Origin: a virus
DNA: 39,931 nucleotides
Virus record (IMG/VR): IMGVR_UViG_3300020202_000151
Location: 1-39,931 of that record
Direction: 5' to 3' (one strand)
Position numbers and translations under genes: made by a program. Under the pieces are notes generated by a model. That model worked only from the letters and a program-made list of their open reading frames with translations. It was not told the origin of the DNA and made no database searches. The stretch's first letter is position 1. Each line of letters opens with the position of its first letter. Shown in pieces: positions 15,675-32,810 of this stretch.

Positions 15675-16235
15675 ATGGCTGGACGCATTTGCACGGCTCT
15701 GACGTTCACGGACGAGACGAACACGACCGGAACGACGGATGCCAAGTACCCGCTCGGAACGCTCCGGATCGAGGAGACGTCCGCGGCGGTGGGCGCTGAG
15801 ACGTACCGTTACGTCAAGTTCGACAACGGTTCCGGCAACGTTGCGGCGGTGGCCGGTGGCGTTTGCTATCGCGGTGTGACCCAGGCTCGGCCTTGGGAAG
15901 TCACCAGCGACGTGTCCACGGTGGATTCCGCCTTCGCGGCGGGGATCTTCCAGTCCGTCCTCACGGACGCCAATTACGGGTGGGTCAAGACGAAGGGCTA
16001 TCAGTCCAACGTCAAGAAGCACACCGGAACCGGCTTCGCGTGGGTGAAGGGCGACTACATCTATGCCTTCGGCTCTTCCACGGCGGACCAGAAGGCCGTC
16101 AACATCAAGCTCGCGGCCACGACCAAGGTGTCGGGCGCGGAGCTTCGGAAGGCTCTGGAGAGGGGCATCGGATGGGCTGCGGCTGCCGTGTCTTCCACGA
16201 CCGGCACCGGGGCCGCCTATATCGACCTGGAGTGA
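15675..16235 (+). CDS. Probable capsid decoration protein
   Basis: This gene lies directly after the capsid gene with ribosome site AGGAGG. The 186-residue product is rich in Thr, Gly, Ala and Val and reads as all-beta (TALTFTDETNTTGTTDAKYP; NGSGNVAAVAGGVCYRGVTQ). Location and composition suit a shell-stabilising or decoration protein. It would be the most exposed Ser/Thr-rich head protein and so a candidate glycosylation target of the two following enzymes. No specific family is recognised. Confidence 0.6.
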   Translation: MAGRICTALTFTDETNTTGTTDAKYPLGTLRIEETSAAVGAETYRYVKFDNGSGNVAAVAGGVCYRGVTQARPWEVTSDVSTVDSAFAAGIFQSVLTDANYGWVKTKGYQSNVKKHTGTGFAWVKGDYIYAFGSSTADQKAVNIKLAATTKVSGAELRKALERGIGWAAAAVSSTTGTGAAYIDLE

Positions 16236-16277: not shown

Positions 16278-17054
16278 ATGTTCTATATCGTGAACCCGAA
16301 AAAGCTCGGGTCCAAGAAGCTCAGGCTTCTTCTCAGGGAAGGCGATACCGTCGAGCATGACGTCTGGCCGAACCTGATCCGGATTGACTCATGGGAACGG
16401 GTGAACTCCAGGCACCCCGGAAACCCGTGGAAGCACATGTCGGACCTCTACGGGAAACATGAAGGGGAAACCGTCCTCATCACCGGAAGCGGTCCCAGCT
16501 TGAAGGACTGCCCGGTACGTCCTCCGGTTACCACGCTGGCGATCAACCGATCCATCCGGAGAATCCAGGCGGATTACTGGCTCTCTCACGATGCGGATTG
16601 CTACCTGGACGCGAAGGACCATCCTCACGCCCAGGCGGCCAAGAAGGTCTTCTCCATCTCCATGCACGAAACCCTGAAAGGCGTTCCTTGCACCATGATC
16701 GAATCCAACTGGCGTCCGGAGCGGTGGAAAGACCCGAAGACGCGGCCTCTCTACTGGAACGAAACCACCCTCGGATGGGCGATCACCTTGGCGATGCGGA
16801 TGGGAGCCAAGCGGATCGTGACGATTGGGACGGACCTGTCGAGCGCCGGGTATTGGGACGGCTATCTGCAACCCGGGAAGGACAAGGCGTGGCTGTCCTC
16901 CCAGCACTACGGCGTTGCCAGCCGCATGAAGGAAATGCTCTCGGATGACGAGCGGCCCCATTGGATGGACCGCCCGGTGGAGATCGTGGATTCGTCCTTC
17001 GGCGCGATGCCCGTCCCGAAGCTGAAACTGGAGGATGCCCTTGCCCCTGGCTAA
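16278..17054 (+). CDS. DUF115/Maf-like (glycosyltransferase-type) protein, copy 1
   Basis: The 258 residues show the layout of DUF115/MptE-like and Maf proteins. A nucleotide-binding-type motif LITGSGPSLKDCP sits at 68-79. Then come LAINRSI and DYWLSHDADCY (99-109), and later the segment TLGWAITLAMRMGAKRIVTIG ending in TDLS (164-188). Known Maf proteins transfer nonulosonic acids to flagellin Ser/Thr. It is paralogous to the next gene, which has the same motif order. Its place between head and tail genes suggests action on virion proteins, and the window also encodes NeuB- and NeuA-like enzymes. An alternative is a structural protein with a Rossmann-like fold and no catalytic role. Confidence 0.7.
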   Translation: MFYIVNPKKLGSKKLRLLLREGDTVEHDVWPNLIRIDSWERVNSRHPGNPWKHMSDLYGKHEGETVLITGSGPSLKDCPVRPPVTTLAINRSIRRIQADYWLSHDADCYLDAKDHPHAQAAKKVFSISMHETLKGVPCTMIESNWRPERWKDPKTRPLYWNETTLGWAITLAMRMGAKRIVTIGTDLSSAGYWDGYLQPGKDKAWLSSQHYGVASRMKEMLSDDERPHWMDRPVEIVDSSFGAMPVPKLKLEDALAPG

Positions 17055-17751
17055 AGACCTCTACGGAACCGGGCGCGGTCACTTGGCCGTCATCATCGGC
17101 ACGGGGCCTTCCATCTCCCATGCTGTCCGGAACGTCATGGAGCCCAATCCGAACGTCCTCCGCATCGCTCTGAACGATGCTATCGCCACGATCCCCGCGG
17201 AATACTGGTTTTGGATCGACGGAGACGCCTACCTGCGCCAGAAGGACCATCCGAACGCGAGGAAAGCCGTCAAGGTCGGCGTCGAGCACTTCCAGCACCT
17301 TTACGAGCCGTCTGTCTACGTTTGGGAGCGATGCCTGAAGGATCTCGCGGGCGATCTTGAGAAAGGCAACCTCGTCCACCGGTCGACGAGCCTGATTGGC
17401 GCGATCTCCTTCGCCATGCGTCTCGGATGCTTCCGGGCCGTCACGGTCGGATGCGACAACCGGGTATCCGAAGAGCAGATCGTGGCCCGTGAAAAGACCG
17501 ATCCGTCCAAAAACTGGCGGGACATCTACACCTTCACGTTCGCCAGGATCAACGAAGCCATCGCCAACCGGAAGAAATGGCTTCCCGATGATTTTGCCCT
17601 CGTGGATGCGAGCTTCCGGAAGGACACCTTGGAGCACGGGGCGCTCCTCCTTCCGAAGACGACCTTGGCCCGCGAGCTGGCGCTTCTCAGGGAATTCAAA
17701 GAGTGGGAATCCAAGCGGAGACTAAGCTATGGCGGCGCTCTCGGCGCTTAG
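17035..17751 (+). CDS. DUF115/Maf-like (glycosyltransferase-type) protein, copy 2
   Basis: This 238-residue protein overlaps copy 1 by 20 bp and shares its motif order: VIIGTGPSI (19-27), LRIALNDAI, EYWFWIDGDAYLRQKDHP (56-73), and SLIGAISFAMRLGCFRAVTV with GCDN (119-142). The KDHP.A.KAVKV segment also matches copy 1 (KDHPHAQAAKKV). Tandem duplication and divergence are evident, perhaps for different acceptors or sugars. The start ATG has GGAGG immediately before it, with unusually short spacing, so reinitiation from copy 1 is possible. Function as in copy 1, by inference. Confidence 0.7.
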   Translation: MPLPLAKDLYGTGRGHLAVIIGTGPSISHAVRNVMEPNPNVLRIALNDAIATIPAEYWFWIDGDAYLRQKDHPNARKAVKVGVEHFQHLYEPSVYVWERCLKDLAGDLEKGNLVHRSTSLIGAISFAMRLGCFRAVTVGCDNRVSEEQIVAREKTDPSKNWRDIYTFTFARINEAIANRKKWLPDDFALVDASFRKDTLEHGALLLPKTTLARELALLREFKEWESKRRLSYGGALGA

Positions 17752-18574
17752 AACCGATTTCCAGCGGCGGTTTCAGGACAAGAATGCCGGATTCCTTTCG
17801 GCGACCCCGGCGAATCTCTACCTGAACATCGCTTGCGAGGAATTCCAGAACGACGTGCAGCCCATTTGGCGGGAGTACGGGTATTACGTCACCGCCAAAC
17901 AGTTCCGGTACGACCTCCCCAGCGATCATATCCACACCTTTGCGGTCATGTGGTATCAGCAGGGGCAGTTCCAGCCCATCGAGTACCTATCTCCCCAGGA
18001 ATTCAAGGACCGCGGCTATCTCAACAAGCGATACACCGTCTCCACCCCGGAAGCTTACACGATGATGGACAACGACCTCTATCTCGGGCCTGCCCCGGGA
18101 TCGAGTTCCAACACGTCCACCCTGAACGGGGCTCACAACACGACCGTCACGACCATTTCCGTAGCGGATGGGACGAAGTTCAACAGCCCCTCCGGAATCG
18201 TGAAGATCAACAGCGAGCAGATTGCCTATCAGAACGTCTCGACGAACGATTTGACGCTGGCGATCCGGGCGCAAGGGGGCACCTCGGCGGCGAGCCACTC
18301 GAACAGCGATACCGTCTCCAGACTGGATCTCGTCATCACCTACGCCTTCTCCCACGCCTACATGTCGGCGGATACGGATACCCCGGCGTTCTCGGCGCGG
18401 TATCACCGACTGCCCATCCACTACGCGATGTATCTGGCGCTCAAGCAGGACAGCCGGGACGAGCAGGCCAAGGAAGAGTACGAAGTCTACATGCTGGAGA
18501 AACAGAAGGCCAAGGCGGAAATCCGCAGGCTTTCAAGGGACCGCAGGAACCGGAAGATTGCGACGGCTTACTAA
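17729..18574 (+). CDS. Head-tail adaptor (podovirus-like) with beta insertion
   Basis: The 281-residue protein overlaps the upstream gene by 23 bp and has a good ribosome site (GGAG, 10 bases upstream). It begins with helical sequence typical of adaptors (LRTDFQRRFQDKN; LYLNIACEEFQNDV), then FRYDLPSDHIHTFAVMWYQQ. A Ser/Thr-rich beta insertion (about 115-200, NTSTLNGAHNTTVTTISVAD) follows, and a helical C-terminus. The position before the stabilisation-like protein parallels gp4/gp10 of P22-type phages and gp11/gp12 of T7-type phages. The insertion may be surface-exposed. Confidence 0.7.
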   Translation: MAALSALRTDFQRRFQDKNAGFLSATPANLYLNIACEEFQNDVQPIWREYGYYVTAKQFRYDLPSDHIHTFAVMWYQQGQFQPIEYLSPQEFKDRGYLNKRYTVSTPEAYTMMDNDLYLGPAPGSSSNTSTLNGAHNTTVTTISVADGTKFNSPSGIVKINSEQIAYQNVSTNDLTLAIRAQGGTSAASHSNSDTVSRLDLVITYAFSHAYMSADTDTPAFSARYHRLPIHYAMYLALKQDSRDEQAKEEYEVYMLEKQKAKAEIRRLSRDRRNRKIATAY

Positions 18575-18576
18575 CC

Positions 18577-20010
18577 ATGGCGATTGAAGACAACAAAGTC
18601 TCGGTCAATCTGGGAAGGCTAGACGGCGGCTTGGTGACCCGGCTTCCGGCTCACATGATCGACGCCAATCAGTCTCCGAGCTGCCAGAACATCGACCCTT
18701 CGGAGCACGGGGCGCTCAAGAAGCGGAAGGGATACATCAAGTTCACGTCCGCCGCCAAGGTGACTCCCACGGGAACGTTCGTGAGTGGCCTGTACGCGGC
18801 GGCGACCTCGGGCGGCACCGCTTACGTGCTTGCCGCCGAAGGAACCGTCCTCCACGACATCACGGCCGGGAATTGGTCGACCACGGTTTCAGGAGTCACG
18901 ATCACCGTAGACACCATGGTCCGGATGCGGATGTTCAATGACAAGTTCATCATCTGCAACCAAGGCGGCGGCCCATTCAAGTGGACCGGCTCTGGCGCTG
19001 CGGCCTCTCTGGGAGGCACTCCCCCGGCGAATGCTAGGAACGTCGAAGTTCACAGGGCCCGAGTATGGCTTGCCGCCAATACGTCGGTCCTCAGTTTTTC
19101 GGCGCTCTCGAACGAAGAGGACTACACCACCGCCGACAACGCCGGGTCCATCACCATCAACAAGGGCGACGGGATGGTGATTAACGGCATCATCTCAGGC
19201 GGGGATTTCCTGATCGTCTCAAAAACCGCTCCATCCTCTGGCGGTAAGGAAGGGAAACTCTACGTCATCACCGGCTCCAGCGTCTTCGATTTCTCCGTCA
19301 AAAAGGTGGCGGATGTCGGAGCAGTTGGGCAAGAAGGCATGGTGGCCTACGACAACTTTGTTGCCGTGGCGACCGAGAGGGGGGTGGTTGCGATCCGTGG
19401 CCGCGAGCCGTTCAAGCTGTCGGAGCCCGTGGACGTAACCTATGTGACGATCCCCAACAAGGGGACCATCGCCGCAGGCCGGTACAAGACCACTCTCCGG
19501 TTTGCCTACCCGGCTACGGGATCTCAGAACAACCGGGTTCTCAATCTTGATGTCGAGCGGGGGGTCTGGAGCAACGACACCGGGAAGACAGCTCGTATCT
19601 ACGCCAATCATCCGGATGGCAGACTCCTCTTTGGAACTTCCGGAACGTCCATCCTTGTCTGGGAAGATGAAAACGGCACCAACGACGACGGCTCCAACAT
19701 CAGCATGATTTGGGATACCCCGGATCTCGACTTCGGGGAATGGGCGGCCCCGAAGCGCCTCCAAGCAACCGACATCCACGCGGAGAATACCGGGGCTACG
19801 CTGACCTTGGAGCATCTCATCGACGGAACGCTTCAAAGCTACTCTCAGACCATGGCGACGGCGACGGAAGGGCCCGTCAAGAGAATGCCCCTGCACCAGA
19901 ACATCCGTGGGAAGTTCCATCGGCTGAGAATCTCGAACAATTCCACGACGGCGGTGACGGTCTATCAGCTCAAGTGCTTCGCTCAACTCTTTGGCATTGG
20001 GTCAAAGTAG
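18577..20010 (+). CDS. Tail stabilisation / tubular protein (P22 gp10-like)
   Basis: ATG 18577 begins a 477-residue all-beta protein; the open frame upstream is out-of-frame overlap with the adaptor gene and is not used. Repeated strands such as GALKKRKGYIKFTSAAKVTP, TVDTMVRMRMFNDKFIICNQ and ARVWLAANTSVLSFSALSNE are typical of the beta-propeller stabilisation proteins that plug the podovirus tail. The order adaptor-then-stabiliser supports this. It should form a hexamer below the portal and carry the fibre or needle. Confidence 0.7.
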   Translation: MAIEDNKVSVNLGRLDGGLVTRLPAHMIDANQSPSCQNIDPSEHGALKKRKGYIKFTSAAKVTPTGTFVSGLYAAATSGGTAYVLAAEGTVLHDITAGNWSTTVSGVTITVDTMVRMRMFNDKFIICNQGGGPFKWTGSGAAASLGGTPPANARNVEVHRARVWLAANTSVLSFSALSNEEDYTTADNAGSITINKGDGMVINGIISGGDFLIVSKTAPSSGGKEGKLYVITGSSVFDFSVKKVADVGAVGQEGMVAYDNFVAVATERGVVAIRGREPFKLSEPVDVTYVTIPNKGTIAAGRYKTTLRFAYPATGSQNNRVLNLDVERGVWSNDTGKTARIYANHPDGRLLFGTSGTSILVWEDENGTNDDGSNISMIWDTPDLDFGEWAAPKRLQATDIHAENTGATLTLEHLIDGTLQSYSQTMATATEGPVKRMPLHQNIRGKFHRLRISNNSTTAVTVYQLKCFAQLFGIGSK

Positions 20011-20019
20011 GAGGATGCC

Positions 20020-20502
20020 ATGACCAGCGTGTTCGGCCTGTACTTCCAGAGGCAGATGCAGAGGAACAACAACTCCCTGCAAAAGCGCGGCCTACGGTTT
20101 GGCTTGGATCAGGCCAGGAGAAACCGAGAGACGACGGAAGAGCAAGCCCCCCTCATCCCTCGCCGGGCCGAGGAAGACTTTGCGGCCCGCGGGGTTGAGG
20201 ATTCCACCTTCCAGAAAACCGGAGTCAATCGGGCGTCCAACCTCGCTAGCCGCATGGTTGAAGGAGCCCGCGGCCGCGAGAACCTCGCCGCCAAGGCGCT
20301 TTCCACCTACAAGAAGAACCTCAAGTATCAGCGGTACGCCTACTACGCGGCCATCGTCTCGGCGCTCATCAACAACGCCGCGGCGGTGTCCGGAGCTGGC
20401 GGCGGAAGCATGGGCCAACAGGCCCAGCTTCCTAGTGGGGGTGGCGGGGGTGGATACGCCTCGGTGGGTGCTGGTGACTACACCTGGGGAGGCGGGGCGT
20501 GA
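20020..20502 (+). CDS. Small virion-module protein with Gly-rich tail
   Basis: ATG 20020 follows TAGGAGG. The 160 residues comprise a basic, helical N-terminal half (QRQMQRNNNSLQKRGLRFGL) and a hydrophobic helix (YYAAIVSALINNAAAV, about 107-122). The C-terminus is Gly/Ser-rich (GSMGQQAQLPSGGGGGG). A single hydrophobic helix and disordered tail resemble small ejection proteins of T7-like phages. The role is inferred from position. Confidence 0.55.
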   Translation: MTSVFGLYFQRQMQRNNNSLQKRGLRFGLDQARRNRETTEEQAPLIPRRAEEDFAARGVEDSTFQKTGVNRASNLASRMVEGARGRENLAAKALSTYKKNLKYQRYAYYAAIVSALINNAAAVSGAGGGSMGQQAQLPSGGGGGGYASVGAGDYTWGGGA

Positions 20503-20720
20503 ACATCTTTGACGGATACAACAAGCGCAGACTCCAATCCGGAGAACTGGAAGAGCCCGACCAGATGTTCCCAGAAGAAGAACCCCCCGACCTTGGGGAA
20601 GACGGCGCGGCTCCTTGGCTCGACGTGGTGAAGAAGAACAAGGAAGACGCGATGGGTTTGTTCAGCAAGATGCGGAAGAAGCAGCAGGATCAGGAGGGGG
20701 ACTATGGCGCTCCAGAATAA
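20499..20720 (+). CDS. Small acidic protein
   Basis: GTG 20499 overlaps the previous stop (GTGA). The 73 residues are acidic and Pro-rich (EEPDQMFPEEEPPDLGEDG), then basic at the end (FSKMRKKQQDQE). It overlaps the next gene by 17 bp. Function unknown. Confidence 0.55.
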   Translation: MNIFDGYNKRRLQSGELEEPDQMFPEEEPPDLGEDGAAPWLDVVKKNKEDAMGLFSKMRKKQQDQEGDYGAPE

Positions 20721-22221
20721 CCTTTTCCAAGGCATGAAGGCCCCGGCGGCTACTCCAAACGCCCAACAGATCCTCATGCAGCTCTTGGAGCAGCAGCAGG
20801 CGAACGATCCTGAGCCCAGGCCCCCTACTCCGCAGGAGATGGCCCAGCTTCAGCAGAAGGCCCAAGAGATGCTCGGGCAACAGAAGGGGCCCCAGCCTGC
20901 GGCGGCTCCTCCACCTGCCCAGCCTCCCCCTCCAAGCCCCGCCCCGGGGGACCAGAACTTCATGGGCCCCGTTCAGCCCCCGGAGGATGCGAAAGCCTCT
21001 GAGCGGGAAGCTCTCATGAAGCGGCTGAAAGAGCTTGAGCCGCCACCCAAGGCGGCGCAGCCGGGTCTACCCTCTCCATTCGGAACGCCGACGACGGTGG
21101 CGGGCGGCTTGGCGGCAGCCCATCGAATGGTGGGTACGCCCGCCCCGCAGATGCCCGGCGCTCCTGGCAATCTAGCCAAGAACCTTGAGCAAAGGGTGTA
21201 TCAGCCGTTCATCAAGCCCGCGTTGGAAGCGGATTCCGCGTTGACCCAGAAACTCTTTGACGCCGACTCCAAGGCGACTCAGGCCACCCAGAAGTGGGTC
21301 AATGAGTGGTTTGAAGATCCAGACAAGAAGCAGCCTACCGTTGCACCCGCCGCAAAGAAGGAGCTTCCGAAGGTAGAGCCTGAGATGGGCCCCCCTCCCA
21401 GCATGGGCCCTCAATCTCCTATAGAGCGACCCCTGTCCGATGAGGCCCTCGAGCTTGGCGAGCGCCAGATTAGCGAGGGGACCGCCAAAGATCAGGTTAT
21501 GGACAAAATGGCCCAGGAGGCAAGGGCCGCCGCGGACGAGCTTGCCAAAGGCGTCGAGAACGACGTGCAGGCCGATGCCCGGATGCGGGCTGAGTTCGGA
21601 AACGATCCGGAGTTGGAAGAGGCCATCAAGGAAGCCAGAGCGACCTACGAAGGGCTCCAGAACCGCCCCGGCCCGAATGTCGGTCAGTACATCCTCCACG
21701 TCCTCATGGTCCTGGCAGGAGCCAATCCCTTCCAGGCGGCGGAAGTTGCCTTCGGACGCGGCAGACGCTTCCAAGAGGAGCAGGCTGCCGGGGACAAGCT
21801 CTTCCGCCTACAGATGGCGAAGATCGGTCAGCGTCAGCGTGGCCGGGAAATGGACATTCAGGACCAGAGAGCCGAAAAGCGATTCGCCCAGCAGATGAAG
21901 GTGATGGACGCCAAGGATAAGCTGTCCGCGCAGACGGCTGAATCCCGTGAAGGAATGGCTCGTCTGAAGGCCATCCTCCAGGCCAACCAGACGGAGGCCA
22001 ATCGGGATAGTCGTCGCCTGGACATGATGCCCCAAGGGCAAGAGCGGAAGGATCTCCAAAAGAAACTGGCCGAACGCGAGAAGGTCATTCAGAGGCTCAA
22101 GAACATCTTGGGCGAAGATGCGCTTCTCAATCCTCCGAAAGAGGATATAGGGGGACCGCAGAGTTACGTTTCTCCACAGGTGAACCGACTCCTTGGGATC
22201 GGTGGCGGGGGTAATGCCTAG
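20704..22221 (+). CDS. Pro/Gln-rich internal virion (ejection) protein
   Basis: The 505-residue protein starts at ATG 20704 with AGGAGGGGG. Residues 1-170 are low-complexity Pro, Gln and Ala (QQQANDPEPRPPTPQEMAQL). The rest is helical and charged with possible coiled coil (EEAIKEARATYEGL; REMDIQDQRAEKRFAQQMKV). It precedes the very large ejection-type protein, as in podovirus internal-core operons. Such proteins leave the capsid with the DNA and build a channel across the envelope. No family domain is recognised; assignment is by position and composition. Confidence 0.55.
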   Translation: MALQNNLFQGMKAPAATPNAQQILMQLLEQQQANDPEPRPPTPQEMAQLQQKAQEMLGQQKGPQPAAAPPPAQPPPPSPAPGDQNFMGPVQPPEDAKASEREALMKRLKELEPPPKAAQPGLPSPFGTPTTVAGGLAAAHRMVGTPAPQMPGAPGNLAKNLEQRVYQPFIKPALEADSALTQKLFDADSKATQATQKWVNEWFEDPDKKQPTVAPAAKKELPKVEPEMGPPPSMGPQSPIERPLSDEALELGERQISEGTAKDQVMDKMAQEARAAADELAKGVENDVQADARMRAEFGNDPELEEAIKEARATYEGLQNRPGPNVGQYILHVLMVLAGANPFQAAEVAFGRGRRFQEEQAAGDKLFRLQMAKIGQRQRGREMDIQDQRAEKRFAQQMKVMDAKDKLSAQTAESREGMARLKAILQANQTEANRDSRRLDMMPQGQERKDLQKKLAEREKVIQRLKNILGEDALLNPPKEDIGGPQSYVSPQVNRLLGIGGGGNA

Positions 22222-25200
22222 TGGTCGGTCCCCTCAGTCCTCAAGATCCGATCAAGCCTATCTCTGGGTTTGAAAGCGGAGCGCCGAACGCCCAGGGCCC
22301 CAGGGTCCAGGGCATGAATGCGCCCAAGCTCAAGCCCATGGGCGGGGTTCCGAAACTGCCCCCCCTTCCCAAGCTGCCGCCTATGGGGGAGATCCCCCAA
22401 GGACCGCAAGCTCTCCCTGGATACCTCGCCCCTCCCCCTCGGGATGCCATGTCCGCGGCGTTCGACGAGCCTCCCGTGGTTGAGCACAAAAGCCTGGGCG
22501 GCTTCATCCGCAACTTCGGGAAGGATGTCAGTCAGTTCATCGAAGGCATCCCGGCGATGATCCGCGTGGCTTGGAATTCCGGTGCGGAGATCGTCAAGAA
22601 CCGCGAATGGATCGGAGAACTCTTCAAGCATCCTGAATACCTCACTAAAGAGCTTGAAGAAACATGGACCCAGGTAGTGAAGAGCTTCACCGACACCTAC
22701 AAGGACGGCTTGTGGGAAGGCTTCTACAAGCATCCCTTTACGGTCCTCTTGGATGCCACGACCGTGGCAGACGTGGCGGGAGTCGGCGTCAAGGCGGCGG
22801 GCAAGGTGGCTCTCAAGGCAGGCTCCCAAGAAGCCGCTATGAAGATTGCCAAGCTCGGGGACGACATCCAAAGGCTACCCGGCAGGATCATGAAAGCCCC
22901 CTTCACGATGGCGGGTAATACCGCCCTGAAAGTCCCCATGGTCCGGAGCATCGCGGAGAATCTCGCCCTGACTCCTCTGGGGCTTACGGAGAAGAACGCC
23001 TTGGGCTCTCAACTCCTTCAAGCTACCGGCATCGGGGCTGGGGAGGCCAAAGGGCTCATCCAGAAGGGGCTTTCCAAGATCGAAGCCAAGGAACTCTGGG
23101 ATGTCATCGACGGGGAAATCCCGCTCGACATGGCGAAGTCCCCCAAGGTGAAGGCGAGAGCCGAACTCTGGCACAAGTACATTCAGGACGACGAACGCCT
23201 CTTCATGGAGCTTGGGGCGAAGAATACGGACGAACTGGCGGACGCGCGGCTCAAGCCTCTCGCCAACCGGATGAAGGCGGATGGACGCTTTGACGGAGAA
23301 CTCCACCGGCTGAACGAAAAGGGTGAACTGGTTTATACCCGCGAAGCCCTGGACGCCGCCAAGAAGTGGGCTTCCGGGGAGAATCCGTATGGCCGTCCCA
23401 CCAACCCGGATTACCACCCCTTCTTCCATCAAAGGACGCTGGACCTCTCTGAGCTTCTCGAATCCTTGAAGTCAGAGAGCCAGAGCCTTCAGTACATCTC
23501 GAGGTTTGAAAAGAAGACCGGCCTTGGACCTGGGATCATTGACGATCCCGATGTTGTCATGGCCCGGAACCGGCTCCAAATGGCGCAGTTCAAGGGCATC
23601 GTCAACTATACGATGGACGCCATCGGGCGTCTCGGGGTGCCCCTGAAAGGCGTCCAGGCTCCTCCCGGCTATAAGGTCTTCAACCCCATTCTTCTCAAGT
23701 ACATCGAAGGCGGGCTCATCAACGGCTACGAGCTTCTCACCAAGAACGCCTTGGAATACATCGCGGGAGCCGCTCCGGGGAAACGCGGGCAAGCCTTCCT
23801 CCAAGCTATCGGAAAGACTCAAGACGACCTCATGAAGTCGAACGTCTGGAAGGAAGCCCTGGCGGAAGCGGACAATCCTGCCGCCTGGAATCTGGCGATC
23901 CCGAATGAAGTAGCCTATCTGATCGAAAGCCAGCTCAAGGGCGTATCCGGCCCGCTCCGGTTCTACGACAACATCATGAACACGTGGCGGACCACGGTGC
24001 TGACCCTCATGCCCCGCTACTACGTCAACAACATCTTGGGGAATGCGGTGCTCCTCATGTTCGGCGGCGTGACGCCGTTCTCCAAGAGCATGGCTCCGCA
24101 CAAAGGGGCGATGCCTGGAGAAGCGATGTCCAGCGCCTCGCTGGCCATGGAGGCCGACCGGACCAACAACCTGTTCGCCAACATCCCCGGCATGAAGAAG
24201 GTATTCCGGGCGGCGGACACCCTCGGGGACATCACCGATACCCGTCCTCGGCAAGTCTTGGTGACGAAGAATCTGGCGGAAGGGTTAAGGTCCGATGCCG
24301 CGATGGGCGATGCCGTCGCCCAAGCCCAGCTTGCCGGGCGGACCATGACGGAAGCGGTACAGAGCGCCTTGGAAGCCCGTCGGGAGCTTCTCTCCCTCGG
24401 AACGGAACAGGCCGTTACCGCCAAGCGATACGTGGCTTCAAAGCAGCAGGGGGAATTGCTGGCGGGCTTCGACAAGCAAATGGTGGACATCCAGAAGAGA
24501 ATCCAGCAGCAGAAGGCGCTTTCCAATGCCTCGATTCCAAGCGCCGATTCCACCAAGATCATCGACGACCTGGAGCAGCAGCTAAAGGCCCTGGCCGACC
24601 GGAGACAAGCCCAGGTGGGCAGCTTCCCCTTCCCCGCCAAGGCCGGGGATGACATCGCCCGCTTGGAGGAGATGCGTCTACGGCGGGAAGCCCTGGCCCC
24701 TGTTTCCGCCAAGGTAGAACGTGCCGTTACCGAAATGGAACGCTTCCTGGGGAATTACGGAAGGCTCCATCCCATCGAGCGTGAATGGATCAGGAGGGTG
24801 ATTCCCTTCTGGACGTTCGCCAAGACGATGAATCAACTCCTCTTCCAACTCCCCTTTGTCCGCCCCAAGACGGCGTTCCTCTGGCATCACTACTCCAAAC
24901 TGATGCTCGACGCCGCCAATGACGACCGGCTTCCCTATCGCTTTCGGAACATGATCCCGATTGGCGGGACGGAAGACGGCCACATGATCTTCATGCGGAT
25001 CGGAGGCTTCAATCCCTTTGAAGCGGTCGGCACCTTTGAGATGGCCGGGCAGACGCTTCCCAAAATGGCCGATCCCGCTCAGAATCCATTCGTCAAGGTG
25101 TTCTTGGAAACCCGCGGTGGATACGACACCTTCCTTGAGCGCCCCTTCACGGAGCCCACGGATTTCGTTTCCCTGAACGGGACGGTCTGGAGATACGACC

Positions 25201-25580: not shown

Positions 25581-25759
25581 TCGGCCTACTTATGAGAGCG
25601 TTCGTAGATGGTTTTGAGGGCAGACCATCCAAGAATTACCAGGATGAGCACCCCCACAACCGTTACGCACGGGCCGCTCGCCCGATCTCCTCTTTCTTCA
25701 TCAAGGGGCGTGTCTTGGTGTCGGTTTGGGTAAACCTGCACAAAGAGCTTCATGCGTGA
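25577..25759 (+). CDS. Small basic protein, unknown function
   Basis: ATG 25577 overlaps the preceding stop (ATGA), giving 60 residues with a basic middle (RYARAARPISSFFIKGRVLV) and a hydrophobic beta-like end. It fills the gap before the tail fibre. It has coupling but no independent ribosome site, so it is moderately likely to be real. Confidence 0.45.
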   Translation: MIGLLMRAFVDGFEGRPSKNYQDEHPHNRYARAARPISSFFIKGRVLVSVWVNLHKELHA

Positions 25760-25762
25760 AGT

Positions 25763-28330
25763 ATGGCTGAAGAAGAAGAAAAAGACAATAAGCCCTACAT
25801 CGTTCTGAACGGGGAAACCCTGGCGGGCATCCCCAAGGAAATCTACAAGACCGCCGATTACAACGATCTTGTCAAACCGTGGAATGAAGTGGACGATGCC
25901 ATTCGGGACGGGCAGGTCTATAACTACGTCCTGCCTGACCCCATCGACAATAAGCGGATCTTGCTTCAGGACGGATCGGCTGGAGCTCCCTCTCTCGCCT
26001 TCCACAACGACACCGATACGGGGCGCTATCTCATTGCCGCCGGGAACGTCGGAGAATCCATCAACGGGAGCCTTGTCTACGACTGGAATTCCACGCGGCT
26101 TCTGTCGGCCATTATCATTCATCACCCGAACGGGACGGTTGCCGCCCCGGCCTTGGCCTTCTCGAGCGAAACCGGCACGGGCAGGTACTTGATCGGCGCA
26201 GGCAATCCAGGGGAAGCCATTGGCGGGGTGGCCGCTTATGACTGGAATGCCACACGCCTTTTCTCCGCTACCCTGGGGGTGTATCTCGGTACGGGCACTC
26301 CGGTTACGTCCGCCGATTGGCTGAGTGTCCTCAAGTCTTCCAACGGGATTGTCCGGAACTCCGTCAAGAACTCCAATGCAGGGGCTTCCGCTCTGGCAGA
26401 GTGGTACGCCGAGAACAACGCGGGCAACATCCTTACCATGGGTGTTCGAGGCTCGGGGTGGAGTGGCTCTCCCTTCAATGCCGGGGATGCCTATATCGCT
26501 TGCGGCTCCAGCACCGACCTTCAAATCTACACTCCCACGAACTCAAGCATCTTCTTCCTGACCGGGAACACCTGGCGGGGCACCTGGGACAGCGGCGGTG
26601 ATCTTGAGCTTTTCTATGACCTGAAATTCAAGGTCACTTCCAGCGGATCGTTCGTCTCTGAATTCACCCTTCCCTCCATTACGGCAAACAGGACCGTTAC
26701 CATTCCCGATTGGAGCGGCACCTTAGTCCTCAATGAGGACCTCGCCGTTCAAGAGGGTGGAATCCTCTTCGGGATTGTCGGCGGTGGCCCGGCTAAGACC
26801 AACAACTCCATCTTGTATTTCGAGGAAGCAACCTCCGCCCTGTCGGTTGGTGGAAACTACATCTGGAAGAGTGGGACTTCCTTCAAGGGCACTCTGGATC
26901 ACGCCAATACCGCCGACCGGGTTTATACCTTCCCCGATGCTAGCGGAACCATCCCGTTCGGCACCGGAGCGGCCAATCGAGTTGCATTCTGGAGCGCCAC
27001 AAGTGCCCTGACCAGCGAAGCGGGCTTTGAATACAACGCCACCACCAACTATCTAACTGTCGGCGGCTCAATCGGGGTGGGCGGCATCACGCCCCCGCAG
27101 GATTTCCTCGTTATCGTCCAATCTGACTCTACCAACCCCCTGAACGACCCCCCGCGAATCGCTCTCTACGATGCTGGGCAAGCTCTGGACACGAAGGCGT
27201 GGGCCTTCGCCATGCAAGGCTCGGACTTCATCGGCCTTGCGATGGACGATGCCTTTACCACGGCGTCGGGGAATGAATGGGTCCGCGTTACCCGTTCGGG
27301 TCAGGCGATCCAGCTAGTCAAGCTGGCGAACGCGGCATACACACTCTCGGCCGTCGCCGGGACGAGCACGTTCAATGCGACGAACCTGGACATTGACCAC
27401 CAATTCCGGGGAGTGAATGCCAACGGCTTGCTCCTTCTGGACGCCGGGACAGACCGCATTTCCTCCACCGTCAGCGATGCATCAACTACCCCCATCTATG
27501 ACTTTATCCAGTCTTCTACTGGGGATGCTGCAATCCGGTTTGCCATTGGAACCACCCAGAGCTACGCCATCGGTATTGATAACAGCGTCTCGGACAACCT
27601 TGTGATTTCTGGTGCGGCAAGCGGTTCGGCAGTGCTTGGAACCGGAAATCTTCTAAGCATGACCACGGGCGGTATTACGACGATGGCGGGCGTTATTCGT
27701 GGCCCCGATGCATCAGTTAGCGCCCCCAACTGGTCTTGGAGTTCGGAAACGAACTCAGGAAGGTATTTTGTCACCACCGGAACCTTTGCGGAAGTGACAG
27801 CGGGCGTTGCTCGATGGGCGTGGAACGCATCTGGGTTTTCGATGGGTAGCGGTTATGCAATGGGCTGGTCCTCTAATACCAACCCCACGGCGGCGGCCCT
27901 TGAAACGACCCTGTTCAGAGATGCCGCCTACACCATCGCCCAGAGAAGCGGCGCAAACGCCCAGGAATTCCGGGTTTACAACACGTTTACATCAAGCACC
28001 AATCACGAATTCGGAAAGCTGGAATGGGTGTCGAACGTGTTCAATGTCGGCACCGAGAAAGGCTCTGGCGGTGGAACGGCTCGGGCGATGGCTTTCCTTA
28101 CGGACAACACGGAAAGGATGCGCCTCCTCGCAGATAAGCCGGTCCTCGTCATGGACGAGGCCGACGCAGATCCTAGCACGACAGACTTGGACGCTTCGGA
28201 TTCCGTTGCAATCTACACCAAGTCAAACAAACTCGTTTTTGCCTATAACCTCGCTGGGGTTATTAACTACCTGACGATTCCCTTGGACGGCGCTACGACC
28301 ACTTGGACACAAGGAACGACGGCCCCCTAA
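25763..28330 (+). CDS. Tail fibre / receptor-binding protein
   Basis: This 855-residue beta-rich protein should contact the host receptor. After an N-terminal virion-anchoring segment (1-70) it has two adjacent 48-residue repeats (about 71-118 and 119-167). Both share APxLAF, a (D/E)TGTGRYLI-type core, GNxGE and YDWNxTRL. A third diverged copy lies near 648-697 (APNWSWSSETNSGRYFV, then WAWNASGF). The middle has further Gly/Ser/Thr strands; the final 60 residues are more polar. These repeats are typical of trimeric fibre shafts. The many Ser/Thr residues are possible glycosylation targets. The next gene starts on its stop codon (TAATG). Confidence 0.85.
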   Translation: MAEEEEKDNKPYIVLNGETLAGIPKEIYKTADYNDLVKPWNEVDDAIRDGQVYNYVLPDPIDNKRILLQDGSAGAPSLAFHNDTDTGRYLIAAGNVGESINGSLVYDWNSTRLLSAIIIHHPNGTVAAPALAFSSETGTGRYLIGAGNPGEAIGGVAAYDWNATRLFSATLGVYLGTGTPVTSADWLSVLKSSNGIVRNSVKNSNAGASALAEWYAENNAGNILTMGVRGSGWSGSPFNAGDAYIACGSSTDLQIYTPTNSSIFFLTGNTWRGTWDSGGDLELFYDLKFKVTSSGSFVSEFTLPSITANRTVTIPDWSGTLVLNEDLAVQEGGILFGIVGGGPAKTNNSILYFEEATSALSVGGNYIWKSGTSFKGTLDHANTADRVYTFPDASGTIPFGTGAANRVAFWSATSALTSEAGFEYNATTNYLTVGGSIGVGGITPPQDFLVIVQSDSTNPLNDPPRIALYDAGQALDTKAWAFAMQGSDFIGLAMDDAFTTASGNEWVRVTRSGQAIQLVKLANAAYTLSAVAGTSTFNATNLDIDHQFRGVNANGLLLLDAGTDRISSTVSDASTTPIYDFIQSSTGDAAIRFAIGTTQSYAIGIDNSVSDNLVISGAASGSAVLGTGNLLSMTTGGITTMAGVIRGPDASVSAPNWSWSSETNSGRYFVTTGTFAEVTAGVARWAWNASGFSMGSGYAMGWSSNTNPTAAALETTLFRDAAYTIAQRSGANAQEFRVYNTFTSSTNHEFGKLEWVSNVFNVGTEKGSGGGTARAMAFLTDNTERMRLLADKPVLVMDEADADPSTTDLDASDSVAIYTKSNKLVFAYNLAGVINYLTIPLDGATTTWTQGTTAP

Positions 28331-28983
28331 TGGCTTGCAAAATGTACGTCATGGACGTGATCTTGGACGAGACGGCTTGTGATGCCGTTAGGCCGAGATA
28401 CTACGTCTGCGATGTGGAGAGCTTAGACCGTCCAGCCAGTGGATCAAGAGAAGGGGATATCTGCTACTGCAAGGATACTAGGAAAACCTACACTTGGACG
28501 AGTCAGGCGGCTTGGGCGCAAACGGGTGGCTCAGGCAGCAGCGGTAGTGGGGCTAAAGCCACTTATATCCCGCTCATCCATCACTTCACCACGCTGGAAT
28601 TGACCACCTCAGCCAATGCGCTTTGGAAGATCCCGGCGGCCACCACCTACGGGCAAGCCGGGGTGCTTCTGGACATGTCGAAGCTGGGCACCCCTAATAG
28701 CGCAACGCTCGCCATCGTCTACACCAATACCGCAACAAGCGGAGTGAATCAGCTTGGATTGGTCCTCAGCAATTCCCCGGTCGCGGCGGGGACTACCGTG
28801 GTGCCGGTAACGTCCAGCATCGTGACGACGGTCAACTCGTCCACCTACCCGCAGCTTATTGAACAGTCCATCTTGATCGCGGAACTCGGCACCGCCAAGA
28901 AGTGGGCACAGTTGGCTTTGAATCTCGTTACCAACTCGGTTGGCCCCAACGTGTTTGCCGCCGATTTGATCCTGTACTACTAG
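28330..28983 (+). CDS. Tail-fibre-associated beta protein
   Basis: ATG 28330 shares its A with the TAA stop of the fibre. The 217-residue protein has an N-terminal region with RPASGSREGDICYCKDTRKT, resembling a carbohydrate- or fibre-linked module. A Gly/Ser linker (GGSGSSGSG) and a beta-rich C-terminus (ATLAIVYTNTATSGVNQLGL) follow. It is likely a second fibre component or a fibre cap; no family is recognised. Confidence 0.6.
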   Translation: MACKMYVMDVILDETACDAVRPRYYVCDVESLDRPASGSREGDICYCKDTRKTYTWTSQAAWAQTGGSGSSGSGAKATYIPLIHHFTTLELTTSANALWKIPAATTYGQAGVLLDMSKLGTPNSATLAIVYTNTATSGVNQLGLVLSNSPVAAGTTVVPVTSSIVTTVNSSTYPQLIEQSILIAELGTAKKWAQLALNLVTNSVGPNVFAADLILYY

Positions 28984-28991
28984 GAGCACCC

Positions 28992-29249
28992 ATGCCTGAC
29001 ATTCAGATTACGGGCCTGACCGCAGCGCAGCAAGCTGAGATCGTCGCGGCCTTTATATCCGTACACGGTGCCGTGCCGCTGGACAAGGATACGTCCTTGC
29101 CCATCATGACCAACGCTCAATGGGCCAAGAGCAGAATGTTCAACTACATCAAAAGCACGGTGCAGGAGTACAGGCGCAAGCAAGTCAGGGAAGCCCAGAT
29201 GGACAGCATAGACGGTGCTGTAAATACTGAATTTGGGGAGATTACATAG
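28992..29249 (+). CDS. Small helical protein, unknown function
   Basis: ATG 28992 follows TAGGAGCACCC. The 85 residues begin ITGLTAAQQAEIVAAFIS and contain a basic helix (MFNYIKSTVQEYRRKQVREA). Position between fibre and lysis-like genes may suggest an assembly chaperone, but this is inference. Confidence 0.65.
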   Translation: MPDIQITGLTAAQQAEIVAAFISVHGAVPLDKDTSLPIMTNAQWAKSRMFNYIKSTVQEYRRKQVREAQMDSIDGAVNTEFGEIT

Positions 29250-29254
29250 AACCT

Positions 29255-29350
29255 GTGAAGCGAGTAGTACGGCTCATTCCGTTCTGGTTCTGGCTGTGGC
29301 TGGTGTTCGGTATCGGCTGGTTCATGGGAGCTTGGTTTGGATTTAGATGA
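29255..29350 (+). CDS. Tiny single-span membrane protein (31 aa)
   Basis: GTG 29255 to TGA 29350 encodes a basic start (KRVVR) followed by a Trp/Phe-rich hydrophobic helix (PFWFWLWLVFGIGWFMGAWF). A purine tract GGGGAG lies 14 bases upstream, farther than ideal. Small pinholin-like or lysis-accessory proteins look like this. It is short, so coding is plausible but unproven. Confidence 0.45.
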   Translation: MKRVVRLIPFWFWLWLVFGIGWFMGAWFGFR

Positions 29351-29363
29351 TAGGAGGTGAGAA

Positions 29364-29663
29364 ATGAAGTTGGTCAAGGTTCCTGATCCGGTGAAGGTTG
29401 AGGGGGTGAAAGAGATCCCCTTCAAGGAATGGCTGGTGACTCACATGGATTCGTTCGAAGGGGTGAAGACCCCTTCTCAGGTGAGACAGGCCGCCAAGAT
29501 CGTTGATGTCATCGAGAAGTCCAACGGGGAGATCGCTTTTGAAGACGCCGATTATGAGGTCATGAAGGCGGCCATTCAGAAGACTCCCTATTTCCCCAAG
29601 ATTGCAAGGCAACTGGTTGGGTATTACGACGCCTTTGACAAGGCTGAGGAAGTGAAGAAGTAG
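29364..29663 (+). CDS. Small protein in lysis region, unknown function
   Basis: ATG 29364 has a perfect AGGAGG. The 99-residue soluble protein is mixed alpha/beta (EIPFKEWLVTHMDSFEGVKT; YEVMKAAIQKTPYFPKIARQ). Proteins of this shape occur near tail or lysis genes in several phages, but none is recognised with confidence. It has no signal peptide. Confidence 0.7.
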   Translation: MKLVKVPDPVKVEGVKEIPFKEWLVTHMDSFEGVKTPSQVRQAAKIVDVIEKSNGEIAFEDADYEVMKAAIQKTPYFPKIARQLVGYYDAFDKAEEVKK

Positions 29664-29723
29664 GTAAACGCGACCGGGGTAGTTGGGAAAGGATAGGAAA
29701 AGGTGGGTAAGGAGGACTACGAC

Positions 29724-29948
29724 ATGAGTGTGGTGGATCTCCTCAAGAAGATCCACCCTAGAACGGTCATCTGGTTTTTGCTTACGGCGATCTTCTGTCT
29801 CATCGCCTTTGTGGGCAAGCACTATGACACCCGTTTGGGGGCCCTTGAGGAATACAAGAAGGAGCAGAACGGGCACCTGCGCCAGATTGACATTAGGCTG
29901 GAGAGGATTGATACGTCTCTGCAACACATCAAGGAGAAGGTGAAGTGA
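29724..29948 (+). CDS. Membrane protein with C-terminal coiled coil (holin/i-spanin-like)
   Basis: ATG 29724 has GGAGG eight bases upstream; an in-frame GTG at 29703 is less likely. The 74 residues have a transmembrane helix (about 14-31, VIWFLLTAIFCLIAFVG) and a coiled coil with regular Leu/Ile (LEEYKKEQNGHLRQIDIRLE). This resembles XhlA-type lysis proteins or an inner-membrane spanin. The following gene encodes a lipoprotein, as in spanin pairs. Confidence 0.65.
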   Translation: MSVVDLLKKIHPRTVIWFLLTAIFCLIAFVGKHYDTRLGALEEYKKEQNGHLRQIDIRLERIDTSLQHIKEKVK

Positions 29949-30190
29949 TGAAGTATTTCTACGTCGTCCTGGCTCTGGGGATGGGGGGATGCGCTGGTCT
30001 GTCTCGAGGGGCTTCCGATGTCGTCAGCGGCACGGTGGCTTCCGTCAACCCCTTCACCGATACGGCCAACTGGCTGGGCTATGCCTTGGCTACGACCGTG
30101 GGCGCTGGCGTGGTGGCTACCGTCCGCGGGTATGTCCGCGGCAAGCTGTCGGACAAGCTGGGGAGTGATTCCGAAGAGCCGAAGATCTAA
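29948..30190 (+). CDS. Small lipoprotein (candidate outer-membrane spanin partner)
   Basis: The previous stop and this start overlap (TGATG); GTG 29945 is an alternative start. The 80-residue product has a lipoprotein signal ending GMGGC (Cys15), then a Ser/Val-rich stretch. It also has a second hydrophobic segment (NWLGYALATTVGAGVVATV, about 42-60), unusual for a pure o-spanin. The C-terminus is basic then acidic. With the coiled-coil membrane protein it may form a spanin-like lysis pair, but a second hydrophobic helix argues for caution. Confidence 0.55.
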   Translation: MKYFYVVLALGMGGCAGLSRGASDVVSGTVASVNPFTDTANWLGYALATTVGAGVVATVRGYVRGKLSDKLGSDSEEPKI

Positions 30191-30198
30191 ACAATCAG

Positions 30199-30303
30199 TC
30201 CCAGCCCTGGGCATCATGTGGAAGGACCACAGCGGGGGTATACTGTATCCCTCTCTCTTCCCTAGAACCACAACCTATCATCAGCCGATGCCTGGGGCTG
30301 GGA
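30199..30303. terminator. Long inverted repeat between convergent operons
   Basis: TCCCAGCCCTGGGCATC (30199-30215) pairs with GATGCCTGGGGCTGGGA (30287-30303), 15 of 17 positions, across a 71-base loop. It fills the gap where the rightward and leftward operons meet, so it may act as a two-way transcription end. The long loop and absence of a clear U-run make it atypical. Confidence 0.5.
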
Positions 30304-30307
30304 AATA

Positions 30308-31168
30308 TTAATCCCTGAAGAGCTTGAGCTTCTTGACCATGCCTGCCTCGCATGGTAGAATGCCAGTTCTTTCCCTCCAAGCCTCTGAAACGGCCTTCAC
30401 GTCTCTGACCAGTTTGGCGAGCCCTTGCGGCTCAAGACTTGCGCTCTGATCGGTCCCCTTCCAAGTGCGGTTCAGGGTGAAGTGGCGCTCGAGGTAGCTA
30501 GCCCCCAGCGTAACCGCGGCGATGTCCAAGGCAATCCCGTTGTGGTGTCCGCTAAAGCCGACCGCCTGGAGAGATCCCCACGAATGATCCTTGAGAAGCC
30601 TGGGGATGTCCAAGAGGCATACATCCGACATCTCCGCAGGGTACTTGCTGGTGCAAGCGTAGAGGACCAACTGGCGGGATCTTCCGGCTTTTAGCCAGCG
30701 GAGTTCGGCTTCCCTTCCGCACATGCCGTTGGAGATATGGACGTCCCCTTCCCATTCGTGGAACACAGTTTCCAAGAGTCGGGAATCCTCGTTGTGGGCG
30801 CTGGGGATCTTGAGAAACGGCGGGTCCAGTAGTGCAATCTGCCGGAAGCTGGAGACATCCCAGACGGAGCAGGCGTACAGGATACCCTTAGCCTGGGCGT
30901 AGGCTTGGAGTTCCGCATGTTGGTCTACGGTGAACTCCAGCTTTTCCCGATGCTCCCCATACGTGTCTCCAAAGCTATTCTCGCTGTTGTAAGGCTCGTC
31001 ATATCGAGCGGGAGTAAGACATTCCCTCGGATTCCTCTTCTGGAACTTGATGGCCCAAGCACCACATTGGGCGGCCACGGAGATCATCTCCCTGGCGATC
31101 TTCATACTGCCCATGTGGTTGCAGCAGGCTTCCGCGATCACCTTCGCATCAATCTTCTCCGGATGCAC
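30308..31168 (-). CDS. neuB: NeuB-family nonulosonic acid synthase lacking the SAF domain
   Basis: NeuB enzymes join phosphoenolpyruvate to a hexosamine derivative to make a sialic-acid-like sugar. The 286 residues cover the catalytic TIM barrel: VIAEACCNHMGS (10-21), AIKFQKR (39-45), YACSVWD (98-104), LKIPSAHN (119-126), YACTSKYP (170-177), VGFSGHHNGIALD (203-215, where classical enzymes have SDHT) and ERHFTLNRTWKGTDQSAS (227-244). The C-terminal antifreeze-like SAF domain of typical 340-residue NeuB is absent. The SGHH and TWKGTD motifs recall a SAF-less subfamily. The substrate cannot be predicted. The start is GTG 31168. Confidence 0.9.
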   Translation of the reverse strand: MHPEKIDAKVIAEACCNHMGSMKIAREMISVAAQCGAWAIKFQKRNPRECLTPARYDEPYNSENSFGDTYGEHREKLEFTVDQHAELQAYAQAKGILYACSVWDVSSFRQIALLDPPFLKIPSAHNEDSRLLETVFHEWEGDVHISNGMCGREAELRWLKAGRSRQLVLYACTSKYPAEMSDVCLLDIPRLLKDHSWGSLQAVGFSGHHNGIALDIAAVTLGASYLERHFTLNRTWKGTDQSASLEPQGLAKLVRDVKAVSEAWRERTGILPCEAGMVKKLKLFRD

Positions 31169-31198
31169 TCCTCATGTCCGTTTCCCCTCGCTCTGAGT

Positions 31199-31546
31199 TC
31201 ATTCTGATTCCTTCTTTGCAAGCTCAAAGAACTTATCTGTATGGATCAGCGCGTAATGCCGTGTCCCAAGCAGTTCGTCGGCATTCTTCAGATGGACAAC
31301 TGGGACCCCTCTTACTAAGAGGTTTTCAAAACTAACTAGATCGGAGGCATATCGGGGGTGGACCGTAAGAGCGTCCCAAAGCTCCCTCCAATCTTCCTTG
31401 CGGATCAGGAAGAGATACCCATTCTCAGACTTCGCTCTCATGAGCGCATGCAACAGCGAATCCGCCTGAGCCTTGAATTCAAGCGGGATCTGAGTTGATG
31501 CCGCAAGAGCAGCAAGAGCGCCTAGAAAGCCTCGGCGTGTAAGCAT
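31199..31546 (-). CDS. Protein with twin-arginine-like signal, unknown function
   Basis: The 115-residue product begins MLTRRGFLGALAALAAS, a Tat-like twin-arginine signal with hydrophobic core. The remainder (GYLFLIRKEDWRELWDALTV; VPVVHLKNADELLGTRHYAL) is mixed alpha/beta without cysteine. It lies between the NeuB and methyltransferase genes, starting seven bases after the latter's stop. A folded export substrate is suggested. The link with the sugar genes may be coincidental. Confidence 0.65.
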   Translation of the reverse strand: MLTRRGFLGALAALAASTQIPLEFKAQADSLLHALMRAKSENGYLFLIRKEDWRELWDALTVHPRYASDLVSFENLLVRGVPVVHLKNADELLGTRHYALIHTDKFFELAKKESE

Positions 31547-31552
31547 TGCGAT

Positions 31553-32176
31553 CTATTCCTTTGGATTCTTGCAAGCCGCAGCCATCGCCGGGCCTGCCCC
31601 GATGATCTCCTGAATCTGCACGTCATGGAACAGCTCGGATAGGAAGTCCCCCAATTCGCTCGGTTGCCACTCATGGACGTGCCAAGGGTTCTGTGGGTTC
31701 ACGCCGTCATTGGTGGTCGCAATAGGGGTGGTAATGTAGAGCACTCCGGACGGCTCTAGGGCCATGTGAAGCACTTTGATGATGTGCTTGGCTGTCTCTA
31801 TCGGCATGTGCTCGATGACCTCGATGCAGGTGATGAAGTCAAAGGGGCCGTGCAAAGCCCATTCTGCCCCGGTGCAGTAGATGGATTCCCCGCGGCTGTG
31901 CATCTTCTTGGCGTAGGCGATGGCTCCCAGGTTGGAATCCACCCCTACGGTCTTCTTGAAGTACAGGGACAGCATCTCCGTCCCATAGCCTGATCCGCAG
32001 CCGTAGTCCAAGGCAATCTGACGGTTCTCGGCGGGGAGATCGGTGGCGTAGGTTAGCGCCGTCATGTACCGGTAGAGGTGCCTGAACTTCTTGGAAGGAT
32101 CTTCCGTCTCGGTCTTCTTGACGCCCAATTCCTGGCAATCAAACAGGAAGAGGTTCTCCGTTTGGTGTTCCGACAT
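31553..32176 (-). CDS. Class I SAM-dependent methyltransferase
   Basis: The 207-residue enzyme has glycine-rich motif I ALDYGCGSGYGTEML (55-69), an acidic post-I residue in VGVDSN, and motif IV-like DFITCIEVIEHMP, then YITTPIATTNDG and HVHEWQPSELGDF. This is the pattern of small-molecule or glycan methyltransferases. It overlaps the NeuA gene by 38 bp and so belongs to the sugar operon. It could methylate the nonulosonic sugar or its precursor; a nucleic acid target is less likely because no target-recognition domain is present. Confidence 0.85.
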   Translation of the reverse strand: MSEHQTENLFLFDCQELGVKKTETEDPSKKFRHLYRYMTALTYATDLPAENRQIALDYGCGSGYGTEMLSLYFKKTVGVDSNLGAIAYAKKMHSRGESIYCTGAEWALHGPFDFITCIEVIEHMPIETAKHIIKVLHMALEPSGVLYITTPIATTNDGVNPQNPWHVHEWQPSELGDFLSELFHDVQIQEIIGAGPAMAAACKNPKE

Positions 32177-32810
32177 TCTGTTTCCCTCTCATATGGTTGT
32201 ACACAGCCTGGGCGACTACCCAATCTGTTTCCGTGTCGATGTCAATATACGGGGGTGGGACTTCCAGCCACGTTCCGCGGTTGACCTTGCCGTAGAGCAT
32301 GAGTTGGCCTAGTTGTAGGAACGCCGGGACGCTGACGGCGTAGATGCTGCCGGTGACTACCATCTTGGGAACCCGGTGTTGCCGATTCAGATTCTGATAC
32401 ATCGCCCCTTCTGGGACGGTATAGCTGTAGTCCCTCCGGACTGCCGTGCAGCTCGGGAATCCGTTGTCCGTCACCGCCTTGAGGCATAGCTTGATGTCCT
32501 CCACCCTTCTGAATGGAGTGGTTGGATTAAGGAGCACGAAAGCGTCGTATCGCTTGTGTTCCAAGAGAACGGCTCTAATGGTGTCCTCGATGGGGCTGGA
32601 ATCCGTAGCCAACTCTGGGGGCCTCCGATGCAGGGATTCCATGGCCGTGTCGATTTCAGGGTCGTCCGTAGAAACCACCACGTCACACCCTGCCTCAATT
32701 CCTTGCATCAAGGCCAGCCTCCAGAGGGGCATACCACCAAGCCGTAGCTTGTTCTTCCCTGGAAGGCCCTTGGAGCCTGCCCTGGCCGGGACGATGGCGA
32801 GAGTCTTCAT
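32139..32810 (-). CDS. neuA: NeuA-family CMP-sugar (acylneuraminate) cytidylyltransferase
   Basis: NeuA activates the sugar with CTP to a CMP-nonulosonate donor. The 223-residue protein has the signature PARAGSKGLPGKN (8-20), which binds CTP, then VVVSTDDPEI, LLNPTTPFRRVEDI (usually LQPTSPLR), and a late acidic metal motif DIDTETDW. These fit the family well. It lies nine bases after the upstream zinc-protein stop and overlaps the methyltransferase. Together with NeuB it gives the last two steps to an activated donor; the earlier sugar steps would be host-supplied. Confidence 0.9.
   Translation of the reverse strand: MKTLAIVPARAGSKGLPGKNKLRLGGMPLWRLALMQGIEAGCDVVVSTDDPEIDTAMESLHRRPPELATDSSPIEDTIRAVLLEHKRYDAFVLLNPTTPFRRVEDIKLCLKAVTDNGFPSCTAVRRDYSYTVPEGAMYQNLNRQHRVPKMVVTGSIYAVSVPAFLQLGQLMLYGKVNRGTWLEVPPPYIDIDTETDWVVAQAVYNHMRGKQNVGTPNGEPLPV

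Follow-up and report, generated by a model that had tools for sequence, protein, structure and literature searches.

The 39,931-base virus record IMGVR_UViG_3300020202_000151 of IMG/VR, analysed here over its whole length (the window), belongs to a tailed phage with a P22-like portal, a terminase and a major head protein, as identified by Pfam and PHROG matches. Overall, we consider it probable that this phage makes an activated nonulosonic-acid-type sugar and puts it on a virion protein of its own by means of two Maf/DUF115-like proteins, DUF115a and DUF115b. A phage-encoded donor of the cytidine monophosphate (CMP)-nonulosonate type, serving Maf-like transferases, is the well-supported part of this reading. 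It draws on results that were computed directly: gene families, fold, linkage and co-occurrence, conserved synteny, the position of the pair within the structural operon and, for one relative, a seemingly complete pathway. A first-pass annotation of the sequence had proposed that the phage makes CMP-nonulosonate and attaches it to its own particle; the donor supply and the Maf-like fold held up, while virion proteins remain the best inference for the acceptor, and the two DUF115 proteins would act as the transferases.

The pair is placed among the structural genes, where the plus strand carries the head protein, a 186-amino-acid (aa) protein, DUF115a, DUF115b and a tail gene in this order (Table 1). 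The overlap is 20 bp between DUF115a and DUF115b and 23 bp between DUF115b and the tail gene that follows, and the gene order suggests that the pair is expressed late. All named genes are intact open reading frames (ORFs) at the coordinates given. We confirmed the two Maf/DUF115-like genes that had been placed behind capsid and decoration genes at 16278-17751 by their intact ORFs, their weak matches to PF01973 (MptE-like/DUF115) and synteny in five other phages. The capsid gene upstream was likewise verified by PHROG 9953, and the term 'decoration' for the 186-aa protein follows from its position only, as this protein gave no convincing family match in the Pfam and PHROG searches. It is kept in all relatives at 45-68% identity. 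By position, the head protein is a candidate acceptor; serine and threonine content picks out no single one, with an 855-aa (25763) and a 226-aa protein (28303) as rich as the 186-aa protein.

Structure prediction, which had been named beforehand as a refuting test, gave a Maf/GT42-like fold for both proteins. AlphaFold2 models were built with 10-12 homologues as input (mean predicted local distance difference test score 83 for DUF115a and 92 for DUF115b), and the PDB matches found by Foldseek were then scored a second time. The top match was in both cases the Maf glycosyltransferase 5MU5, with Z 14.7 and 4.3 Å over 197 aligned residues for DUF115a and Z 15.2 and 4.6 Å over 200 for DUF115b, the aligned part of 5MU5 being residues about 247-520 only. 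MptE/HPPK 8SD5 came second (Z 12.6 for DUF115a and 13.3 for DUF115b), followed by the cell-division regulator SteA, the GT42 sialyltransferase CstII (1RO8) and other sialyltransferases; thiamine pyrophosphokinases scored about 7-9, and unrelated folds started below 5. CstII is similar to the pair in fold, but its Z values (9.9 and 10.2) are behind those of Maf and MptE at 13-14% sequence identity, and the shared fold in itself shows no function. PHROG 4603, 'alpha-2,3-sialyltransferase', also matches DUF115a (E 4e-4). The DUF115 proteins have an invariant Asn (N90 in DUF115a, N47 in DUF115b) and a GxGxS loop, and may also resemble CstII in a GSGPS motif and an Asn, a likeness not used as evidence here.

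Maf works with CMP-nonulosonates from NeuB and NeuA, as the DUF115 pair presumably does, and its central domain is PF01973 and CstII-like (PMC11339370, on CbMaf), the fold that both DUF115 proteins share. However, Maf has 632 residues in three domains and is found beside flagellin, whereas the DUF115 proteins are paired single-domain copies of 258 and 238 aa beside capsid genes. Because the central Maf fold is present but the PF01973 cut-off and the three-domain build are missed, their sequences and models are best described as those of minimal Maf/GT42-like proteins and not as Maf proteins.

The sugar donor would come from a leftward cassette. The first-pass annotation had described an operon at 30308-32810 with NeuB-like and NeuA-like enzymes and a methyltransferase; Pfam bore out these three genes, with the correction that an additional ORF with a signal resembling that of twin-arginine translocation (TAT) is present at 31199-31546 and that NeuB gave no C-terminal match to the SAF domain in Pfam. 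The synthase passes the PF03102 cut-off (201 bits compared to 22.1) and aligns with solved sialic acid synthases across the catalytic barrel, but does not reach that of the N-acetylneuraminate synthase equivalog TIGR03569 (169.9 bits compared to 399.65). Similarly, NeuA passes PF02348 (CTP_transf_3; 52.8 bits, cut-off 22.6), has the CMP-N-acetylneuraminic acid (Neu5Ac) synthetase 1QWJ as its top solved match (E 4e-14) and stays below the equivalog cut-off of PseF (TIGR03584; 53.8 bits, cut-off 205.7); KdsB-type models match it too. Orthologues of the methyltransferase in L002 and L171 are placed between NeuA and NeuB. The small ORFs found between NeuA and NeuB are unrelated from phage to phage, and none of those in the cassettes of other phages is related to the TAT-like ORF of the window. 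A TAT-signal-like start was also noticed in the small phage protein L096:6801-7232(+).

Table 1 Features of the window discussed in the text.
Feature	Coordinates	Strand	Evidence
Major head protein, candidate acceptor	14711..15658	+	PHROG 9953, E 4e-40; 67-71% identity in relatives
186-aa protein directly 3' of the head protein, candidate acceptor	15675..16235	+	'Decoration' by position only
DUF115a, 258 aa, single-domain Maf/MptE/GT42-like, putative nonulosonate transferase	16278..17054	+	PF01973, PHROG 4603, AlphaFold2 model
DUF115b, 238 aa, paralogue of DUF115a	17035..17751	+	PF01973, AlphaFold2 model, tree
NeuB-family synthase, short form without SAF domain match, GTG start	30308..31168	-	PF03102, E 2e-59
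Small ORF with TAT-like signal	31199..31546	-	PF10518 TAT_signal, E 0.012, below cut-off
S-adenosylmethionine-dependent methyltransferase	31553..32176	-	PF13489, E 1.5e-13
NeuA-family CMP-sugar synthetase	32139..32810	-	PF02348, E 6e-14

Relatives were sought with the capsid protein only, so that the finding was not presupposed. This gave six contigs, counted as five distinct phages since samples 3300021061 and 3300021062 yielded identical match values; single-protein scans with DUF115a recovered no relatives in viral contigs or annotated phages, and alignment of the capsid protein against the genome collection found no prophage. All five relatives have the DUF115 pair in the same position, flanked by the 186-aa protein and the tail gene, with orthologues 40-57% identical. 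The DUF115 tree splits fully supported into 'a' and 'b' copies, without exception, which places the duplication before the spread of the lineage. NeuB was present in 5/5 phages with enough sequence (G001, G003, G004, G056 and the window), the two contigs that did not contain it being fragments of 15 and 18 kb. In G001, G003 and G056, the cassette immediately precedes the terminase block and shares its strand, with the order NeuA, methyltransferase, NeuB in G001 and G056 (the G003 contig stops inside the methyltransferase). The overlap of NeuB with the gene that follows is 4 bp in G056 and 1 bp in G003. The sugar genes of the window and of G004 are found downstream of the structural genes and on the opposite strand. 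That the cassette shifts its place yet was never found missing in adequately sampled members speaks for a role bound to this phage lineage. Read by eye, the gene directly upstream of NeuA in G056 (L171:11784-12437(+)) appears to encode a signal peptide and a pattern like that of a beta-barrel, and its product could be an outer-membrane protein.

One relative, G004, apparently carries a complete nonulosonate route. Adjoining genes encode a PF02719 4,6-dehydratase, a NeuD-type acetyltransferase, a DegT aminotransferase, NeuA and NeuB, and converging on them are a NeuC-type uridine diphosphate N-acetylglucosamine 2-epimerase and an unannotated protein, an enzyme set shared with the bacterial pathways for neuraminic, legionaminic and pseudaminic acid. 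The acetyltransferase scores just above the TIGR03570 cut-off and the other enzymes score below equivalog cut-offs. Judged by established pathways, these enzymes match a nonulosonate of the legionaminic-acid type, although sequence does not reveal the stereochemistry. As the NeuB proteins of G004 and the window are only 27% identical, the G004 cassette may be a replacement by a different set with the same purpose. A chimeric assembly was considered and is unlikely, with an integrase and a RecT-like ORF (assigned by eye) on one side of the cassette and tail-side genes on the other. Between the DUF115 genes of L004 there is a protein (L004:10753-11388(+)) related at 30% identity to the unannotated one beside the NeuC-type epimerase (L096:16605-17177(-)); neither has a Pfam or PHROG match, and by eye both resemble a small sugar-nucleotide transferase.

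The same association was found in a wider set of viral contigs. Among 50 contigs chosen for NeuB, 33 had a PF01973 match, in every case less than 10 kb from NeuB and in 21 less than 2.5 kb from it, and NeuA was present in 47. For comparison, 45 contigs were used that an arbitrary 15-mer had picked out and that were then retained for their length (a 46th record was the relative G056 and was excluded); neither PF01973 nor NeuB was found in any of these. The difference in PF01973 (33/50 compared to 0/45; Fisher's exact p value 4e-13) is a guide only, given that some NeuB contigs are near-duplicates and that this sample is skewed to larger contigs. A further caveat is that most PF01973 matches in the NeuB set are below the curated cut-off (8/50 records above); the profile undercounts, because it misses G056, whose DUF115 pair came from tblastn. 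The co-occurrence of DUF115 with NeuB and NeuA, also proposed beforehand as a check, was thus seen both as conservation in the relatives and as strong enrichment in NeuB contigs. A 2-epimerase was detected in 1/50 NeuB contigs, and most such phages would therefore have to take a host precursor or use a common sugar. The short NeuB form, which has no C-terminal extension, accounts for 75/78 phage loci (L013-L090) and 55/79 cellular loci, one cellular example being a Dyadobacter capsule locus.

Several observations weigh against virion glycosylation by the pair. Both DUF115 proteins score below the Pfam cut-off of 34.6 bits for PF01973 (25.3 bits, E 1.5e-5 for DUF115a; 15.8 bits, E 0.013 for DUF115b), and their fold is also common to MptE, a pyrophosphokinase, and to thiamine pyrophosphokinases. 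The window cassette is 12 kb from the pair on the opposite strand and, compared with the bacterial pathways, brings only the last two steps and a methyltransferase, with no precursor-making genes. Finally, two different tyrosine recombinases in the window (822-1697(-) and 36956-37606(-), the latter 61% identical to L171:5106-5756 of G056) suggest a temperate or resolvase-using lifestyle, and lysogeny would open a different use for the sugar.

The main alternative explanation, which we regard as unlikely though more credible than the others, is that the module adds nonulosonate to a host surface glycan (lipopolysaccharide, capsule) or to flagellin during infection or lysogeny, leading to superinfection exclusion or serotype conversion, and that the DUF115 genes merely sit in the structural operon. 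The recombinases, together with integrases in relatives, allow lysogeny, and glycans of the cell surface are among the possible acceptors of CstII-type enzymes. In Acinetobacter, capsule nonulosonates are known to be altered by phage enzymes (PMC12053666, PMC6586298). However, in every relative the transferase genes are inside the late structural operon and overlap structural genes, the sugar genes lead into the packaging block in three relatives, the DUF115 proteins have no strongly hydrophobic segments, and the genes scanned included no recognisable flippase or polymerase.

Less probable still is a structural or assembly role of the DUF115 proteins, or one as MptE-type nucleotide-binding enzymes, unconnected with the NeuB/NeuA cassette. 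Their place among structural genes is compatible with this, as is the second rank of MptE in fold, and MptE was the single, weak match (E 0.28) when PDB sequences were searched with the DUF115 profile. The fold by itself does not distinguish transferases from pyrophosphokinases, and it is the genomic context that speaks for the former. PF01973 is strongly enriched in NeuB contigs, Maf ranks above MptE for both models, and the window showed no gene of the pterin pathway. There is very little to recommend a cassette that makes another CMP-activated keto sugar from common host sugars for the same transferases, of the ketodeoxynononic acid (KDN) or ketodeoxyoctonic acid (Kdo) type, because although the short NeuB without SAF, the KdsB-type matches of NeuA and the scarcity of 2-epimerases would suit it, the dehydratase, aminotransferase, acetyltransferase and epimerase of G004 point to an N-acylated nonulosonate there. 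The likeness to Maf does not decide this question, since Maf is reported to use Kdo as well (PMC11339370).

Glycosylation of the phage's own particle, which we prefer, would proceed as follows. NeuB would join a host-derived sugar precursor to phosphoenolpyruvate, NeuA would load the product with CMP to give the CMP-nonulosonate-type donor, and the methyltransferase may decorate the sugar. The soluble DUF115a and DUF115b would then transfer it in the cytoplasm to a virion protein, most likely the neighbouring head protein or the 186-aa protein, and the coat may benefit the phage through shielding, adsorption or stability.

Virion glycosylation has so far been established for few phages. In mycobacteriophages, capsid and tail tube proteins are glycosylated by phage-encoded enzymes (Freeman et al. 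2023, cited in PMC12619734); the part of PMC12619734 available describes no phage-made CMP-nonulosonate or Maf-like enzymes for them, whereas for the window enzymes of both kinds are predicted and the virion modification is proposed. Virion glycosylation and Maf-type nonulosonate transfer are each known, and neither their combination in a phage nor a phage with a nonulosonate virion coat was found in the literature searched, most subscription journals being outside its reach.

We give an even chance to the broader proposal that a phage lineage with a P22-type portal maintains a dedicated CMP-nonulosonate supply, with a seemingly complete pathway in one member, and a minimal Maf-like pair to coat its own capsids and, as the NeuB/NeuA/MptE-like set recurs in many environmental phages, that sialic-acid-like virion coats may be common. 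If true, this would offer a role for the many MptE-like proteins without a name in environmental phages, would provide minimal single-domain nonulosonate transferases for glycoengineering, and would tie NeuB and NeuA in viral genomes to the particle and not to host metabolism.

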